This document shows, piece by piece, positions 2,809 through 8,747 of a stretch of 64,000 nt of DNA. The notes under the pieces are model-generated. The model searched no databases, was not told the DNA's origin, and saw nothing but the letters and a program-made list of their open reading frames with translations. Numbering within the stretch: the first letter of the stretch is position 1; each line of letters starts with the position of its first letter. Origin of the DNA: Cognatundibacterium oligocarboniphilum. GTDB taxonomy: Bacteria > Pseudomonadota > Gammaproteobacteria > Burkholderiales > Burkholderiaceae_D. The stretch covers positions 226,377 through 290,376 of the forward strand of contig NZ_JABXYJ010000006.1 of NCBI RefSeq assembly GCF_013377855.1, read 5' to 3'. Position numbers and translations under genes: made by a program.

Positions 2809-3993
2809 ATGAGTAAAGTAAGCCTCCCGAAAAGCATCTGGGTTCTCGGATTCGTCAGCATGCTGATGGACATTTCGTCTGAGATGATTCACAGCCTGCT
2901 GCCGATGTTCATGGTCGGGACGCTGGGCATGAGCGTTTTTGCCGTCGGCCTGATCGACGGTATCGCAGAGTCCACGACCTTGCTGGTCAAAGTATTTTCC
3001 GGCGCACTCAGCGACAAGTTAGGAAAACGCAAAGCCCTTGCGGTGTTCGGTTATGGCATGAGTGCATTCACCAAGCCGCTGTTTGCCATCGCTCAGGGCA
3101 TGGACATGCTCCTGACTGCCCGCCTGATGGACCGTATCGGTAAAGGTATTCGTGGCGCACCGCGCGATGCACTGATTGCCGACATCACACCGCCATCGAT
3201 ACGCGGTGAGGCATTCGGTTTGCGGCAATCGCTCGATACCATTGGGGCGGTCGCTGGTCCGTTGCTGGCAAGCGGACTGATGCTACTGTGGGCGAATGAT
3301 TTCCGGCAGATATTCTGGCTGGCCGTGATCCCCGGTCTGGCCGCCATGCTGCTGCTTTTTTTCGGCGTCCACGAACCGGCATCGGTCGCCATCCGCAACC
3401 CGGGCAATCCGGTCAGCCCGCACAATCTGCGCCGCATGGGACGCAGCTACTGGTGGGTGGTGCTCATGGGCAGCATCTTCACGCTGGCACGCTTCAGTGA
3501 AGCCTTTCTGGTGTTGCGCGCGCAGCAACTGGCGATTCCGGTTGCCCTGGTGCCGCTGGTGATGGTTGCCATGAATCTGGTTTATTCTGTATCAGCCTAT
3601 CCGTTTGGAAAACTATCCGACCGCATCTCACACCAGAAATTACTGGCAGCAGGGCTTGCCGTCCTGATCGCTTCTGACCTGATGTTGGGCTACAGCACAC
3701 AGTGGGCCGGCCTGTTAGCTGGCATTGCGTTGTGGGGCGTGCATATGGGTATGACGCAAGGACTGCTCGCCAGCATGGTTGCGGCCAGCGCGCCGCCTGA
3801 TTTGCGGGGAACAGCATTTGGATTTTTTAATCTGGCCAGCGGCGTGGGCTTGTTACTCGCCAGCGTGATCGCCGGTTTGCTGTGGCAGGAATTTGGGGCT
3901 GCTTTTACTTTTTATACGGGTGCCGCGTTTGCGGGACTGAGCTTGCTGGCCCTGCTGCTGTCCTCCGGCTATGGTCTGATTTCCCGTTCCTGA
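2809..3993 (+). CDS. Major facilitator superfamily transporter
   Basis: A 394-residue integral membrane protein with about 12 hydrophobic segments. The MFS signature after TM2 is visible (GALSDKLGKRKALA) and a related motif lies between TM8 and TM9 (GKLSDRISHQKLL). An in-frame ATG exists at no better site upstream; the start at 2809 (sequence MSKVSLPKSIW) leaves a short cytoplasmic N-terminus as is normal for the family, while the longer frame from 2734 would add an implausible tail overlapping the previous gene. The substrate is unknown; linkage to the TPP enzyme suggests export or uptake of an organic acid or related compound, which is inference. Confidence 0.8.
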   Translation: MSKVSLPKSIWVLGFVSMLMDISSEMIHSLLPMFMVGTLGMSVFAVGLIDGIAESTTLLVKVFSGALSDKLGKRKALAVFGYGMSAFTKPLFAIAQGMDMLLTARLMDRIGKGIRGAPRDALIADITPPSIRGEAFGLRQSLDTIGAVAGPLLASGLMLLWANDFRQIFWLAVIPGLAAMLLLFFGVHEPASVAIRNPGNPVSPHNLRRMGRSYWWVVLMGSIFTLARFSEAFLVLRAQQLAIPVALVPLVMVAMNLVYSVSAYPFGKLSDRISHQKLLAAGLAVLIASDLMLGYSTQWAGLLAGIALWGVHMGMTQGLLASMVAASAPPDLRGTAFGFFNLASGVGLLLASVIAGLLWQEFGAAFTFYTGAAFAGLSLLALLLSSGYGLISRS

Positions 3994-4007
3994 GATGGTG
4001 CAGACAC

Positions 4008-4181
4008 TCAGGACTCATCACCTTCTTTAAGACGTCCGGACAGCAGTTTCTGCAAGCGCATTTTGTATTTCCTGCGCTCGGCACGCTGCGGCTGATGACC
4101 ACCGTGTTCTCCTGCCTGACGCTGTCGGGCAGCGAGCGCAAGCGGGTTGCGGGGTTTTGGTAATTTAATCTGAATCTTCAT
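4008..4181 (-). CDS. Small basic protein of unknown function (57 aa)
   Basis: A 57-codon frame with ATG at 4181 preceded by AAAGGAATATAG (a good Shine-Dalgarno) and TGA at 4008-4010. The protein begins MKIQIKLPKPRNPLALAARQ and continues with many R, Q and K residues, ending KLLSGRLKEGDES. From memory, short proteins starting MKI-KLPKPRNP are found across Burkholderiales and carry no assigned function; this should be checked by search. It converges with the MFS gene, with 14 bp between the two stops. It has no signal peptide or membrane segment. Confidence 0.7.
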   Translation of the reverse strand: MKIQIKLPKPRNPLALAARQRQAGEHGGHQPQRAERRKYKMRLQKLLSGRLKEGDES

Positions 4182-4533
4182 CTATATTCCTTTCCGCCAA
4201 ACCGTGCGTCATCCACTCACAGGAAAAACCATTTTCAACCCATGTTACCAACCTGTGCCGGAAACGCTTTAATGACCGCAAGATATCAGAGCAATCACAC
4301 GTTGTTAGCGTTACAAGACAAGATGCATGTTTAGTGTATCGGAGATGATGCCGAGACGGGAAGCGACTTCGTTCCACCAGACAGCCGGCATGTACCAAGT
4401 TTGCGGCCCGGCTTCAGCGATCAGGTGCGGACGATGCAGTCTACACATTCCCCTGCGGATACTGCGTTCACACTGAACCAGCGGATTCTGAAAAAGCGTT
4501 CTGAAAAAATTTGGAAAATAACCAAAATTTAAT
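4182..4533. other. Intergenic stretch without a recognisable gene
   Basis: About 350 bases between the divergent small gene at 4181 and the promoter at 4534. No convincing coding frame, RNA gene or terminator is visible. Near its right end AAATTTGG...CCAAAATTT (4508-4530) forms an imperfect inverted repeat immediately upstream of the -35 box of the leader promoter and could be a regulator site. Confidence 0.4.
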
Positions 4534-4563
4534 TTGACGCAGCACAATAATATTACCTACAAT
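4534..4563 (+). promoter_or_regulatory. Sigma70-like promoter ahead of the porin/NRAMP leader
   Basis: TTGACG at 4534-4539 and TACAAT at 4558-4563 are separated by 18 nt. Each hexamer matches the consensus at five of six positions. It points to the porin gene, which starts 1.15 kb downstream, so the transcript would carry an unusually long 5' leader. An imperfect inverted repeat just upstream could be an operator. Confidence 0.6.
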
Positions 4564-4961
4564 TCGCAGGTCGAAAAAACATGGGGCTTTTATCTTGGAC
4601 AGTTGTAGTAGCTATTCTTTATCGAACCGGGGATCAATCCCTGCCACTGCCGCTTAAGCTCCAGCCGTTCTCTCTGCTGCAGCCGTGACACTGGCTGTAG
4701 TCTTGTCTCTCAGACTTTCTTTGTTCTCCCGTTGATATTGTCGTTCGCCGTATGACGGCCTGATGTTGTCGCTGTACTGTCGTCCTGCTGCCATTCATCT
4801 GAACTGCAGCCGGTCGCGTCATACCGGACTGATACTGCTTTCGCGATCTTGCATCGCGAAGACCGTCCATGCTTCATGGTTTGCCGATCCGTGCCCGTAC
4901 GGATGCCTGCGTATCTGTGGCGGGAAATGTCAACCTCTGCAATCAACAGGAAAGGATCGCC

Positions 4962-5117
4962 ATGCAATCCGGTCGCTTCTTATTCCCGGTTCGCAAAGAC
5001 GTGCATTCCGCTCCCCGAGTGGAGTGCACGCAGCGCCGGCTGGGCCCTGGGTGCCCAGACTGTCTGAACGGTGTTATTGATTGCTCCGTTCCATCCTGTT
5101 TGTTTCATTTTGTTTAG
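4962..5117 (+). CDS. Possible small leader ORF (51 aa)
   Basis: ATG at 4962 follows CAGGAAAGGATCGCC, a strong Shine-Dalgarno at normal spacing. The 51-residue product starts MQSGRFLFPVRKDVHS and ends with a hydrophobic tail (SCLFHFV); it has four Cys residues, two of them as CPDC. The reading frame covers three leader hairpins, so its translation could change leader folding. It ends 16 nt before the next small ORF. No similarity recognised; it may be non-coding. Confidence 0.3.
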   Translation: MQSGRFLFPVRKDVHSAPRVECTQRRLGPGCPDCLNGVIDCSVPSCLFHFV

Positions 5118-5133
5118 CAACGAGGAGATCAGT

Positions 5134-5322
5134 ATGAAAAAACTACCTGTCCGCACACTCCTGGGCCGTTCTGCAGCGCCGTCTTCTTCCGGCGGCTGGA
5201 AATTCGGCTGGCCGGTAACGACCAGACAAACTCAGAACACCGACCGGCGTACGTTTCATCCGGATCAGGAAAAACATGGTTCCGGTGCCTACGGATTGCT
5301 GGTATCGCGTCATGGCTGGTAA
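5134..5322 (+). CDS. Small ORF in the leader (62 aa), function unknown
   Basis: ATG at 5134 preceded by CGAGGAGATCAGT, a near-perfect Shine-Dalgarno. The 62-residue product begins MKKLPVRTLLGRSA, is basic and polar, rich in G, S, R and T, and ends SRHGW; it has no clear membrane segment. It is followed by the 6-bp hairpin at 5349-5363 and a long T-rich tract, so some transcripts might end there. It could be a leader peptide or a small regulatory protein of the porin/NRAMP operon. Nothing in the sequence is recognised. Confidence 0.45.
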   Translation: MKKLPVRTLLGRSAAPSSSGGWKFGWPVTTRQTQNTDRRTFHPDQEKHGSGAYGLLVSRHGW

Positions 5323-5717
5323 GCCGGCATCAGGCATATCAGGTATAGCCGGAACGGTTCCGGACAATTGATGCTTGTTTGTATTTTTGTTTTTTTAAAT
5401 TTTTGCTTTTTCATTTTTTGGAGTCTTTCCGTGGGCAATAGCTCAGATTGTTGTAGTTGTCGATTATCAGAACCCATTTCGTCCATAAGAAAACGTTCTG
5501 CAGCGACCCCGCCGAAGTAAGATCCGTCAAGAATTCTCTTGCCGCCATCCTGCTCCGGTCCGGATGGCGGTAAACCGGCAGTCATCTGCGTGAAGCCGGT
5601 TTCCCACTGAACCTGCAATGTTCTGATACGCATTCCGTATGAGCTGTTTCAGCTTCATCCATGATGCGTATCCGCCTGCGTAAAGCCCGGTTATTTATAT
5701 CAACCCGGAGTTTTACG

Positions 5718-7088
5718 ATGTTCTTCACCAAACACTTTTTTTCTCGCACAACGTGCATTTTTTCTGCAGCTTTACTGAGCCTTAGCCTGAACGGTCACGC
5801 TGCCGAAATCGTGGCAAACCCAGATGCGCGGCCAGCGGACGACGACGGACAAGGCTCGCCGTGGAGCCTGGGCGCCCAGCTCACCTATGTCAACCAGTGG
5901 CATCCGGATTTCCGCGCGCCCTACAGCGGCACCAACAGCATGGACCCGGCAGCGAGAAACACCAATACCACCGACATCACCCTGTTCCTCGGACGCCGCC
6001 TGTGGAAAGGCGCGGAATTCTGGGTCAATCCGGAAATCGATCAGGGTTTCGGTCTCAGCAATACCGTCGGCATGGCCGGCTTTCCCAGCGGCGAAGCCTA
6101 TAAAATCGGTGAGAACCGGCCTTATATACGCTTGCCGCGTGCCTTCATCCGTCATGTGATCGAACTCGATGGCGACAGCAAGGAAACGGCTGCCGGCACG
6201 AACCAATTCGCCAACCGTTACAGCGCCAACAACATCACCATCACGATCGGTCACTTTTCCGTTCCGGATCTATTCGACAACAACAGCTATGCCCACGATG
6301 CGCGTAACGATTTCATGAACTGGTCCATCATCAGCGCGGGAACCTTCGATTACGCAGCCGATTCCTGGGGCTTCACCAACGGTGCTGCTGTCGAATGGAA
6401 CCAGAACGACTGGACGCTGCGCGGCGGTTTTTTTCAGATGTCGGCCGTGCCGAATCAAAAAGTCACCGGCCTGCATCTGGAGCAAAACAGCATCGTCGCC
6501 GAACTGGAACATCGCCATGAATGGAACGGCCATCCCGGTAAAGTCCGCGTACTGGGCTTTGTCAATCGCGCCGATATGGGCGACTACCGTGATGCCGTGC
6601 AACTGGGGCAGCAAACCGGCACGACGCCTGATACCGCTCTGGTGCGCCGTCGTGCAGCCAATCCGGGACTGAGTCTGAATCTGGAGCAGGAAGTGACAAC
6701 GGATATCGGCGTGTTTGCGCGTATCGGCGTCAACGGCGGCAAGAAAGAAGCCTATGAATTCACCGACATCAACCGCTCCGTTTCCGCTGGCTTGTCCATG
6801 GATGGCCGGCGCTGGGGCCGCGAGCAGGATCGCATCGGTCTGGCGGGCGCCGTGAATGCACTCTCTCCACAAGCCAAAGCGTATTTCGCAGCGGGCGGTA
6901 TGGGCGTTCTGGTCGGCGATGGCCAGCTCAACTACGGCAGCGAGCGCATTGTGGAAGTCTGGTATTCCGCCGCGCTCACCAAACAAGTCCGCCTGACTTT
7001 CGATATCCAGCACGTGACCAATCCCGCCTACAACCGCGACCGCGGCCCGTTCCCGGTCTACGGCGTACGGCTGCATGCAGAACTCTGA
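5718..7088 (+). CDS. Carbohydrate-selective porin, OprB family
   Basis: A 456-residue outer-membrane beta-barrel protein. The start at 5718 is chosen because CCCGGAG lies at proper distance and the product then begins with a clean Sec signal peptide (MFFTKHFFSR, a hydrophobic core, then NGHAAE as cleavage region). The mature part alternates short amphipathic strands with Gly/Asn/Asp turns, contains the OprB-like stretches WVNPEIDQGFGLS and IGHFSVPDLFDNN, and ends with an outer-membrane-type final strand (VYGVRLHAEL). It lies 15 bp upstream of the NRAMP gene, in one operon; the pairing suggests the porin brings the substrate across the outer membrane. Confidence 0.85.
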   Translation: MFFTKHFFSRTTCIFSAALLSLSLNGHAAEIVANPDARPADDDGQGSPWSLGAQLTYVNQWHPDFRAPYSGTNSMDPAARNTNTTDITLFLGRRLWKGAEFWVNPEIDQGFGLSNTVGMAGFPSGEAYKIGENRPYIRLPRAFIRHVIELDGDSKETAAGTNQFANRYSANNITITIGHFSVPDLFDNNSYAHDARNDFMNWSIISAGTFDYAADSWGFTNGAAVEWNQNDWTLRGGFFQMSAVPNQKVTGLHLEQNSIVAELEHRHEWNGHPGKVRVLGFVNRADMGDYRDAVQLGQQTGTTPDTALVRRRAANPGLSLNLEQEVTTDIGVFARIGVNGGKKEAYEFTDINRSVSAGLSMDGRRWGREQDRIGLAGAVNALSPQAKAYFAAGGMGVLVGDGQLNYGSERIVEVWYSAALTKQVRLTFDIQHVTNPAYNRDRGPFPVYGVRLHAEL

Positions 7089-7103
7089 TCAGGGAACGCC
7101 AAC

Positions 7104-8747
7104 ATGAAAACCTTACTCAAAGAAACACCATCAAGCGCGACGGCCGTACTCGACGATCAGCACATCGGCCATATTCAGGGTGCGTTCGGTACCATACGCA
7201 TGCATGACACCGGGCCGCGCAAATCGCTGTCGGCGCGGCTGAAAACGCTGCTCGCCATCCTCGGCCCGGGTCTGATCGTGATGGTTGGCGACAACGACGC
7301 CGGCGCTTTCGGCACCTATGCGCAGGCCGGCCAGAATTACGGCTACACGCTACTATGGACCCTGCTGTTGCTGATTCCGGTACTCTACATTAATCAGGAA
7401 ATGGTGGTGCGCCTGGGCGCCGTCACCGGCGTCGGCCATGCGCGGCTGATACTGGAACGCTTCGGTAAATTCTGGGGTGCCTTCAGCGTGATCGATCTGT
7501 TTTTGCTGAATGCGCTGACCATCGTCACCGAATTCATCGGCATCGATTTCGGCTTGCATTACCTCGGTTTGCCGGTGGTGCCGGGTGTGATTTTGTCGGC
7601 CATCCTGATGATGTTTGCAGTCAGTACCGGCAGCTTTCAGCGCTTCGAGCGATTTGCCATGTGTCTGGTCGGCGGCACGCTGATCATGATTCCGATGTAC
7701 TTCATGATTGCGCCGCCCGCTGGTCAGGTGCTGTTCCATACTCTGGTGCCCGGTCTGCCGCAGCAAGGTAAACTGAGCGACATCATGCTGCTGATTATCG
7801 GTATCGTCGGCACCACCGTCGCACCGTGGCAACTGTTCTTCCAGCAAAGCTATGTGATCGACAAACGGATAACGCCGCGCTTCATCCGTTATGAGCGCAT
7901 GGACCTGATGGTCGGCATCGCCGTGGCGATTTTCGGCGGTATCGCCATCATGGCGTGCACCGCGCACACCTTCGCCCAGCATCCGGAATTCGGCAATTTC
8001 AAGGATGTCGGTGCGGTAGCGCAGGGAATGGAAAACTACTTCGGCCGCGTCACCGGCACCATGTTTGCGTTTGCACTGATCGTCTCGTCCATCATCGGCG
8101 CGGCGGCGGTATCACTGTCCACCGCTTATGCACTAGGTGATGTGCTGTCGCTCAGACATTCGCTGCATCGCAAGCCTTCCGACGCCAAAGGTTTTTACGC
8201 CGTGTACTTCGGGCTGATCGTGCTGGCTGCCGCGCTGGTGCTGGCGCCGGGCGTGCCGCTCGGCCTGCTGACTTCGGCCGTGCAAACGCTGGCGGGCGTA
8301 TTGCTGCCGAGCGCATCGGTGTTCCTGCTGTTGCTGTGCAACGATAAGGCGGTGCTGGGGCCGTGGACCAACGGGCGTGGCGTGAATATTTTCACCAGCC
8401 TGATCGTGGCGATACTGGTGATGCTGTCCGTGATTCTGACGCTGTCCGTGGTCTTCCCCGACATCACGGAAGAGCAGATCAAAATGATACTGGCGACCGG
8501 CCTGGTATTTGCACTGCTTGGTACCACCGGCTACTGGAAACGCCGCCCGCATAGCTGGGCGACGATCACCAGAGAAGCGCTGATACCGAAAGAAGAATGG
8601 CGCATGCCGCCGCTGGAAACGCTGGCGCCACTGAAACTGACGCCGGTCAACCGTTTCTGGATGGCGACCCTGCGCGCCTATCTGCTGGTGGCCGCCGGGC
8701 TGGTGCTGTACCGCATCATCCTGATGGCGATTTCCGGCATGCGCTGA
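7104..8747 (+). CDS. NRAMP-family divalent metal transporter, with a non-canonical metal site (Mg2+ type suspected)
   Basis: A 547-residue protein with about 11-12 membrane segments of the NRAMP fold after a roughly 45-residue cytoplasmic N-terminus. In TM1 the usual DPGN motif is replaced by GDNDAGAFG (residues 62-70). In TM6 the MPHN motif with its metal-binding Met is replaced by VAPWQ (A240, P241, W242). Loss of that Met is known from NRAMP-related Mg2+ transporters (NRMTs) as opposed to Mn2+/Fe2+ MntH, so Mg2+ is the likelier substrate. It follows the porin by 15 bp. A 14-bp inverted repeat lies downstream (8801-8830). Confidence 0.8.
   Translation: MKTLLKETPSSATAVLDDQHIGHIQGAFGTIRMHDTGPRKSLSARLKTLLAILGPGLIVMVGDNDAGAFGTYAQAGQNYGYTLLWTLLLLIPVLYINQEMVVRLGAVTGVGHARLILERFGKFWGAFSVIDLFLLNALTIVTEFIGIDFGLHYLGLPVVPGVILSAILMMFAVSTGSFQRFERFAMCLVGGTLIMIPMYFMIAPPAGQVLFHTLVPGLPQQGKLSDIMLLIIGIVGTTVAPWQLFFQQSYVIDKRITPRFIRYERMDLMVGIAVAIFGGIAIMACTAHTFAQHPEFGNFKDVGAVAQGMENYFGRVTGTMFAFALIVSSIIGAAAVSLSTAYALGDVLSLRHSLHRKPSDAKGFYAVYFGLIVLAAALVLAPGVPLGLLTSAVQTLAGVLLPSASVFLLLLCNDKAVLGPWTNGRGVNIFTSLIVAILVMLSVILTLSVVFPDITEEQIKMILATGLVFALLGTTGYWKRRPHSWATITREALIPKEEWRMPPLETLAPLKLTPVNRFWMATLRAYLLVAAGLVLYRIILMAISGMR

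Follow-up and report, generated by a model that had tools for sequence, protein, structure and literature searches.

Control of Mg2+ importer genes by their mRNA leaders is known from enteric bacteria (mgtL, corL) and from bacteria carrying the M-box. The corL upstream open reading frame (uORF) in the corA 5' region starts with UUG, contains a single proline in its conserved N-terminal part and lies inside stem A of a leader in which stems A/B are set against stems C/D; termination is Rho-dependent, corL expression is inverse to that of corA, and translation of the E. coli uORF matters (PMC11552253, in the part available to us). The same part describes the mgtL leader of mgtA in E. coli and Salmonella as uORF-coupled, with mutually exclusive helices. 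In Salmonella, the mgtCBR operon is preceded by tandem leaders, mgtM and mgtP, that sense ATP and proline (available part of PMC3641672), and Asp at residue 2 of a uORF destabilizes ribosomes and is important in mgtQ (available part of PMC8092293). The M-box (ykoK) is one element common to CorA, MgtA, MgtE and NrmT genes (PMC4072509), and in M. tuberculosis it works with a uORF and Rho (PMC12810186), both according to the accessible portions of these papers. For Burkholderiales, no such leader was found by title or opening of the abstract in the open literature searched, a search with subscription papers mostly outside it.

We analyzed a window of 64,000 nt from Cognatundibacterium oligocarboniphilum. 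An earlier note had proposed that a long leader with small ORFs controls a Mg2+ or other divalent-metal operon. The proposal stood in its general form, as one element of the leader precedes Mg2+ genes in many genomes, but the uORFs and hairpins concerned, apart from one small ORF, are other ones than those named. This element, E1 (4570–4704, about 135 nt), is in our judgment probably a CorL-type leader that acts in cis on Mg2+-uptake genes and is coupled to translation, and it probably represents a widespread switch matching magnesium import to need. Compared with the known CorL leader, the tandem arrangement and the target genes are new; the category is not.

All features of the leader and its operon lie on the plus strand. 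The first large gene encodes an OprB-family porin (5718–7088; PF04966, 177.9 bits) with its ATG at 5718–5720, so that the gap of 1.15 kb between promoter and porin, running to 5717, was confirmed. The promoter at 4534–4563 (-35 TTGACG, 18-nt spacing, -10 TACAAT) matches the consensus at 10/12 positions. Alone this match is no evidence, because two promoter-like sites were found in 3500–8500 and 3.1 were expected in shuffles. Its assignment was upheld by the relatives, in which a TTGAC/-10-like pair stands directly 5' of the homologous element in 32/40 clusters versus 1.8 expected after shuffling. From the promoter we infer an RNA start near 4570, about 25 nt 5' of the E1 uORF. E1 itself consists of an SD-like strand GGGGCUU (4583–4589), a uORF with UUG start (4595–4657; MDSCSSYSLSNRGSIPATAA, then stop), whose start and first codons are conserved in the family, and a 10-bp hairpin of about -15 kcal/mol (hairpin 2, helix B; 4676–4701). 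The SD-like strand forms the 5' side of helix A and pairs at 7/7 positions with AAGCUCC (4656–4662) at the uORF stop codon. Throughout the family the plan is the same: an SD, a uORF of 9–26 codons (UUG, GUG or AUG; M-D-S-[C/Y/H/S]-S...) and a hairpin, directly after the promoter.

Members of the E1 family were found blind to neighboring genes. In a blastn comparison of the window leader with 98 genomes, the first ~140 nt of the leader were matched in three congeners, two copies being upstream of mgtC; three short matches (G032, G015, G067) were left out. Model R1, built from four sequences, matched 4/43 genomes of the genus, which were those used to build it, and revealed a second, divergent copy in G022. 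Across the order it matched 4/349 genomes: beyond the window, one was true (G098) and two, in G175 and G201, looked like chance and were rejected as family members. A pattern scan of genome contigs yielded 32 stretches, and by eye 17 were judged true (Undibacterium, Collimonas, Glaciimonas, Herbaspirillum). Because the scan required TTGGACAGTT, part of this block's conservation in A4 and R2 follows from the search itself; starts with GUG and AUG were contributed by the model searches. Model R2, with 18 sequences, matched 44/294 genomes of the family in 9/44 genera at E<=0.01, three of these matches (G419, G015, G034) being outside the loci examined, and 21/349 genomes of the order. Within the order, the sequence-only model R3 matched 53/379 genomes (28/152 genera; E<=0.05), some by chance, the other order matches at E ~0.01–0.05 lying mostly outside the loci examined; across the phylum it matched 7/398 genomes at E<=0.02. 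In the window's own genome, an ABC transporter is preceded by a second E1 copy (C30:385237, E 1e-4). In G077, two R3 matches of equal score lie on opposite strands 3.8 kb apart (C308:67768 and 71563), with an mgtA match after the first.

The model searches gave 105 kept loci. Excluded before the set of 77 loci was fixed were L153 (a short MDS uORF before ribosomal-protein genes), L154 (no leader), L161 and L166 (no leader at the match), L155 (the same place as L145) and a match in G161 without locus number (later L221). Of 35 loci found later, 28 entered the analysis of 40 dissimilar clusters. Left out were L203, L215, L221, L222, L223 and L225, in which no Mg2+ gene was found, a choice that follows gene context, and L226, whose start had been placed wrongly; it begins with GTG-GAA (M-E-S).

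An SD-like motif was present 9–14 nt 5' of the uORF start in 72/77 loci. The starts were UUG in 52, GUG in 23 and AUG in 2 loci; counts for the start and codon 2 are partly built in, because the leader filter accepted starts of UUG, GUG or AUG only and required GA at codon 2 in all but one case, and every locus entered passed it. Stops were UAA (39), UAG (33) and UGA (5). Among the 40 clusters, Asp2 was kept in 39, Ser3 in 37 and Ser5 in 33. One MgtA leader reads M-E-S instead of M-D-S. Ser5 is encoded by both AGU and UCN codons, with Ser in 25/29 clusters against 13.9 by column shuffles, the p-value of which is too small because the clusters share ancestry. The uORF pN/pS was 1.10 over 198 close pairs and 1.05 from codon 8 onward, and shifted frames gave 0.82–1.14. 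Since the values resemble those of shifted frames, the peptide past its first residues looks free of visible selection, and much of the constraint would act on the RNA. The motif G-W-x-x-[ST]-P was rejected as an arrest motif, as it is missing in many families and pN/pS is about 1. With regard to Rho-dependent termination, a mild pyrimidine excess (C+T 0.60–0.63) was seen at +60 to +120 past the stop.

RNA pairing was tested by comparing segments inside one element with segments swapped between elements (5000 permutations). The end of the uORF (-21 to +9 of the stop) paired with its own hairpin region at -19.5 kcal/mol versus -16.5 kcal/mol when swapped (z -6.1, 0/5000; 40 clusters). The SD region, too, paired better with the post-stop segment of its own element than with swapped ones (z -5.4, 0/5000; 40 clusters), and hairpin 2 itself gave z -3.0 (11/5000) in a run with 29 clusters. 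The bases after the SD showed a short, weaker pairing with the start region (z -2.4, 77/5000). As controls, pairing of the uORF end with a far downstream segment (z +0.6) and of an upstream segment with the start (z +1.6) was null in the 40 clusters. Dinucleotide shuffles of the uORF end gave a moderate signal (z averaged -1.45 with a median of -0.90, and 13/29 lay below -1). Pairing of the uORF start with the hairpin was likewise null (z +1.5 and +1.6) and was dropped as a general alternative. Thus the SD/post-stop and uORF-end/hairpin pairings exceed swapped ones, which points to an attenuator geometry; across the family, the results agree with one stem enclosing the uORF (A), another following it (B) and a third, competing pairing (C). 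Helix A (7 bp) and hairpin 2 (10 bp) are both clear in the window, but the competing uORF-end pairing was unsupported there (rank 47/56 versus swapped segments). A weak alternative partner for 4674–4683 exists at 4602–4611 (10 positions, at least three G-U); it reaches -9.4 versus -22.5 kcal/mol for helix A plus hairpin 2, and the family test gave no support for it.

These data bear on whether the uORF matters at all. In a pure metal-sensing riboswitch, the RNA would bind Mg2+ or another ion and switch the same helices, with the uORF being incidental. Strong nucleotide-level constraint and pairing, together with a uORF pN/pS near 1, agree with such a device, and the importer classes are the same as those of the M-box (PMC4072509, as far as its available part goes). 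Nevertheless we regard it as rather unlikely. As the earlier note had said of known riboswitches, none matched: Rfam covariance models, M-box included, found nothing at the gathering score in the window leader and nothing at E<=0.05 in 20 related loci, so that E1 differs from the M-box in this respect and a known riboswitch was rejected as its identity. Conservation is tightest at the start codon, codons 2–6 and the SD, and not in a core of several helices. Ser5 persists across two codon boxes, and starts vary between UUG, GUG and AUG. That translation of the corL uORF matters in E. coli (PMC11552253, available part) also argues against an incidental role.

Next, the genes around E1 were evaluated. 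Matches to Mg2+ genes (MgtC, MgtC C-domain, MgtA, MgtE, Nramp) lay downstream on the same strand within 3.5 kb in 59/77 loci and upstream, on either strand, in 0/77, a contrast that is somewhat flattering because the references came partly from the same loci and the stretches were short (upstream mostly 1.5–2 kb, some downstream ones also short). The classes were MgtC (27), stand-alone MgtC C-terminal domain (28), MgtA (10), Nramp (5) and MgtE (2), some loci having several; adding OprB and the 62-aa family described below raised the count to 67/77. The loci found later had Mg2+ genes downstream in 25/35 and upstream in 0/35. Six weak MgtA matches of 57–77 bits (L167, L188, L197, L200, L210, L216) fall on an ORF of ~210 aa and, by the lengths seen in three of them, do not represent a full ATPase; without these six, the counts are 58/77 and 20/35. 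The MgtA in L126 scored 1628 bits (cut-off 975). Families checked with Pfam or NCBIfam were MgtA, MgtC, MgtE, Nramp, CorA, OprB, RND, ABC, NicO, MscS, TonB receptor and NAGPA.

Some arrangements recurred. The ~210-aa ORF, weakly like the MgtA N-terminus, follows the 9-codon uORFs MDSCSNTNA, MDSCCNLTA, MDSCCRPNA and MDSCSNLNA in L167, L188, L197 and L200, with a DnaJ-like gene after it in these four, and a uORF also precedes it in L210 and L216. Stand-alone MgtC_SapB C-terminal domain proteins sit between the leader and the ORF of the 62-aa family or after mgtC (L095–L107 group, L126, L129, L131, L132, L100). Leader copies precede genes for an ABC permease (BPD_transp_1) and ATPase (AAA_assoc_C) in L144, L145, L146, L150 (the C30:385237 copy of the window's genome), L151, L152 and L213, and a transglutaminase-like gene adjoins in L144; the substrate of this transporter is perhaps Mg2+-related. 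In L009 (G022), the leader occurs twice at 4302–4867, in divergent copies: a TonB receptor follows one, and an ORF of the 62-aa family and a NAGPA gene follow the other. In E. coli, the DUF2233 gene yigE adjoins corA. NAGPA and DUF2233 are presumably the same family.

Among the downstream genes, those for the ABC transporter, NicO, a CusA/CzcA RND protein, TonB receptor, MscS and NAGPA have no known Mg2+ role. The leader might answer another signal, such as another divalent metal, amino-acid or tRNA supply or the state of the ribosome, and its link to Mg2+ would be indirect. The NicO, RND and TonB receptor targets are compatible with this, as are codons 3–6 of the uORF, which are dominated by rare-looking Ser codons (AGU, UCU) plus Cys and Tyr codons; the Salmonella mgtCBR leaders, too, respond to ATP and proline (PMC3641672, available part). 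However, the commonest targets are MgtA, MgtC, MgtE, NRMT-type Nramp and CorA, and Mg2+ is their common signal. We therefore give such a signal a lower chance than the riboswitch, and a small one overall.

The CorL-type reading also draws on a comparison with corA leaders. The phylum scan found a leader with the uORF MDSHSRYLSDF before CorA, outside the order. Among relatives of this genome, R3 matched 17/27 genomes at E<=0.3. Of 27 loci, 22 were looked at (L249 to L253 were left out); 15 contained MDSHSRY or MDSYSRY uORFs, and CorA followed in 15/15 of these and in 0/7 of the others, with the CorA reference taken from one of the 15. The corA leader of E. coli K-12 has an annotated uORF, ysgD (LDTPSRYWLTILSSRINS, then stop), with a UUG start and an SD context like that of some relatives. 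By its position and start, ysgD would be corL, the UUG uORF before corA; the name ysgD was not seen in the available part of PMC11552253. The start signature is common to E1, ysgD and the 15 CorA-linked leaders, so the best reading of E1 is that of a leader of the CorL type that has spread to other Mg2+ genes; since its start region matches the uORF of the E. coli corA leader, the suggestion of an undescribed kind of regulator had to be given up. R3 did not pick up the E. coli corA region, so that common descent of E1 and corL is likely rather than proven.

E1 resembles corL in the UUG start, Asp2, the similar SD context, the hairpin after the stop and the Mg2+ transporter gene downstream, and its CorA-linked relatives share S-R-Y (MDTPSRY in E. 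coli, MDSHSRY in the relatives). Unlike corL, it precedes NRMT/porin, MgtC, MgtA and MgtE genes in Burkholderiales, the uORF is mostly MDS[C/Y]S, and in the window it stands in tandem with a second leader, E2, with a small protein between them. With mgtL it would share the uORF coupling and, across the family, exclusive helices, whereas mgtL needs prolines and acidic residues and E1 has one Asp and one Pro. Asp at residue 2 recalls mgtQ and the tandem arrangement recalls mgtM/mgtP, but the uORF sequences of mgtM, mgtP and mgtQ, as published, are unrelated to that of E1, and mgtM and mgtP have signals of their own. One element common to several importer families is a trait of both E1 and the M-box.

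A working model for the CorL-type leader can be proposed. Supported by the comparison are helix A, in which the SD strand would pair with the segment past the uORF stop and enclose the uORF, helix B, the hairpin after the stop, and helix C, in which, across the family, the uORF end would pair instead with the arm or loop of the hairpin. The remaining steps are modelled on enteric corL and mgtL. At high Mg2+, efficient translation of the uORF would keep the A plus B form, and transcription would end upstream of the operon, with Rho as the probable agent. When Mg2+ is low, elongation over the first codons of the M-Asp-Ser uORF would fail or slow, helix C would form, and the porin and the NRMT-like importer would be made. 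In the window this control would be doubled, with E1, the small protein and then the divergent E2 before the porin.

The second gene of the operon, behind the porin, encodes an Nramp-family transporter (7104–8747; PF01566), a probable Mg2+ importer by its sequence. Its nearest PDB sequence was EleNRMT (7qia, 170 bits; next, 67). The NRMT motif consists of DxxG in helix 1, TxxA/T in helix 6 and Trp replacing the first His of helix 6b (PMC8806188, available part). The window protein has TTVAPW in helix 6, as in EleNRMT, and DAGA in helix 1 where EleNRMT has DAGG. It scored 118.9 against the MntH model (cut-off 430) and 68.3 against the general model NF037982 (cut-off 50). This NRMT-like protein likely transports Mg2+.

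Two small ORFs with strong SD sequences had been pointed out in the gap. One of them, at 5134–5322, was borne out: it has a good SD and encodes a conserved protein of 62 aa with a W-x-F-G-W motif (FGW protein). The other, presumably the ORF starting with ATG at 4962, lies in an unconserved stretch. An ORF with ATG at 4581 was rejected as a leader peptide, as its frame is broken in a congener. The conserved uORFs, with UUG start at 4595–4657 and GUG start at 5431–5520, had not been mentioned. A motif search found FGW relatives in 25/77 loci, and pN/pS in this family was 0.40 over 85 pairs. This indicates purifying selection and thus a real protein. The 62-aa protein had no Pfam or NCBIfam match, and tblastn in 60 relatives (E<=0.1) gave 12 matches, the sole strong one being the window's own. 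FGW proteins of 60–75 aa sit between the leader and mgtA, OprB/Nramp or NicO genes (the window, L101, L126, L108 and others). Directly after the FGW ORF, short ORFs of ~50–60 residues that look like single-pass membrane proteins were seen in L126, L133, L101 and L096; in L126 and L133 such an ORF precedes mgtA. Small MgtA regulators exist in enterics, and these short ORFs are reminiscent of them.

E2 (5420–5573) was matched by blastn in three other genomes. It comprises an SD (GGAG, 5420–5423), a uORF with GUG start (5431–5520; MGNSSDCCSCRLSEPISSIRKRSAATPPK, then stop) that begins M-G-N-S-S-D-C-C-S-C-R, and a 12-bp hairpin (5539–5573). At this position, three Herbaspirillum-group genomes have shorter uORFs, each ending in a stop: MGTNSDCCSCWKSLLML in G592, MDTGPDCCSCRQSRPML in G546 and MGTSSDCCCGRRSLLTR in G634. 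In these three, CAGCAAG after the stop matches, by eye, CUUGCUG in the hairpin arm. E2 is absent from the R2 and R3 matches in the window's genome; thus the kinship of E1 and E2 is a judgment by eye. With E1 and then E2 before the porin, the window has tandem leaders, as does Salmonella mgtCBR.

In the gap, conservation was limited to E1 (4570–4704), the ORF at 5134–5322 (at the protein level) and two blocks inside 5419–5573 (E2). No blastn match was found for 4711–5130 at E<=1e-3 among the loci collected by then, own-genome copies excluded. The number of hairpins, taken earlier as a signal, was near chance: six perfect stems of at least 8 bp (G-U allowed) were counted versus 3.57 +/- 1.75 in 200 dinucleotide shuffles, 22 of which reached six. 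The stem at 5000–5030, singled out as the strongest, has 14 bp including G-U and was equalled in 2/200 shuffles; it falls in the stretch without relatives and was ruled out as the key structure. Conservation in relatives, the check suggested for these features, was thus found for E1, the 5134 ORF and E2 and not for this hairpin. A reading without regulation, in which the hairpins and ORFs of a commonplace long leader are due to chance, would suit the stem count and the mostly unconserved 1.15 kb but is very improbable. It is contradicted already by E1, whose conservation in many genomes extends to the promoter, pairing and gene context, and by E2, conserved in three others.

We put at about even the broader view that one old leader module, with corL as perhaps its sole described member, stands before all the main classes of Mg2+ importer in bacteria (CorA, MgtA, MgtE, NRMT), before mgtC and before genes for outer-membrane porins, in Burkholderiales as well as in some other orders, senses Mg2+ by way of early elongation on M-Asp-Ser and predicts so far unrecognized parts of Mg2+ uptake. 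If so, the predicted parts would be the FGW small protein, porins of the OprB family and, in Undibacterium, the ABC transporter that has the second copy in this genome. A leader common to unrelated importer families would give Burkholderiales a Mg2+ regulon, corL would become part of a wider family, and a comparison of many natural variants would allow a test of what corL-type uORFs sense. Apart from the leader region, a bacterial class A RNase P RNA was found at 567–937 on the minus strand, the sole match of the window at an Rfam gathering score.
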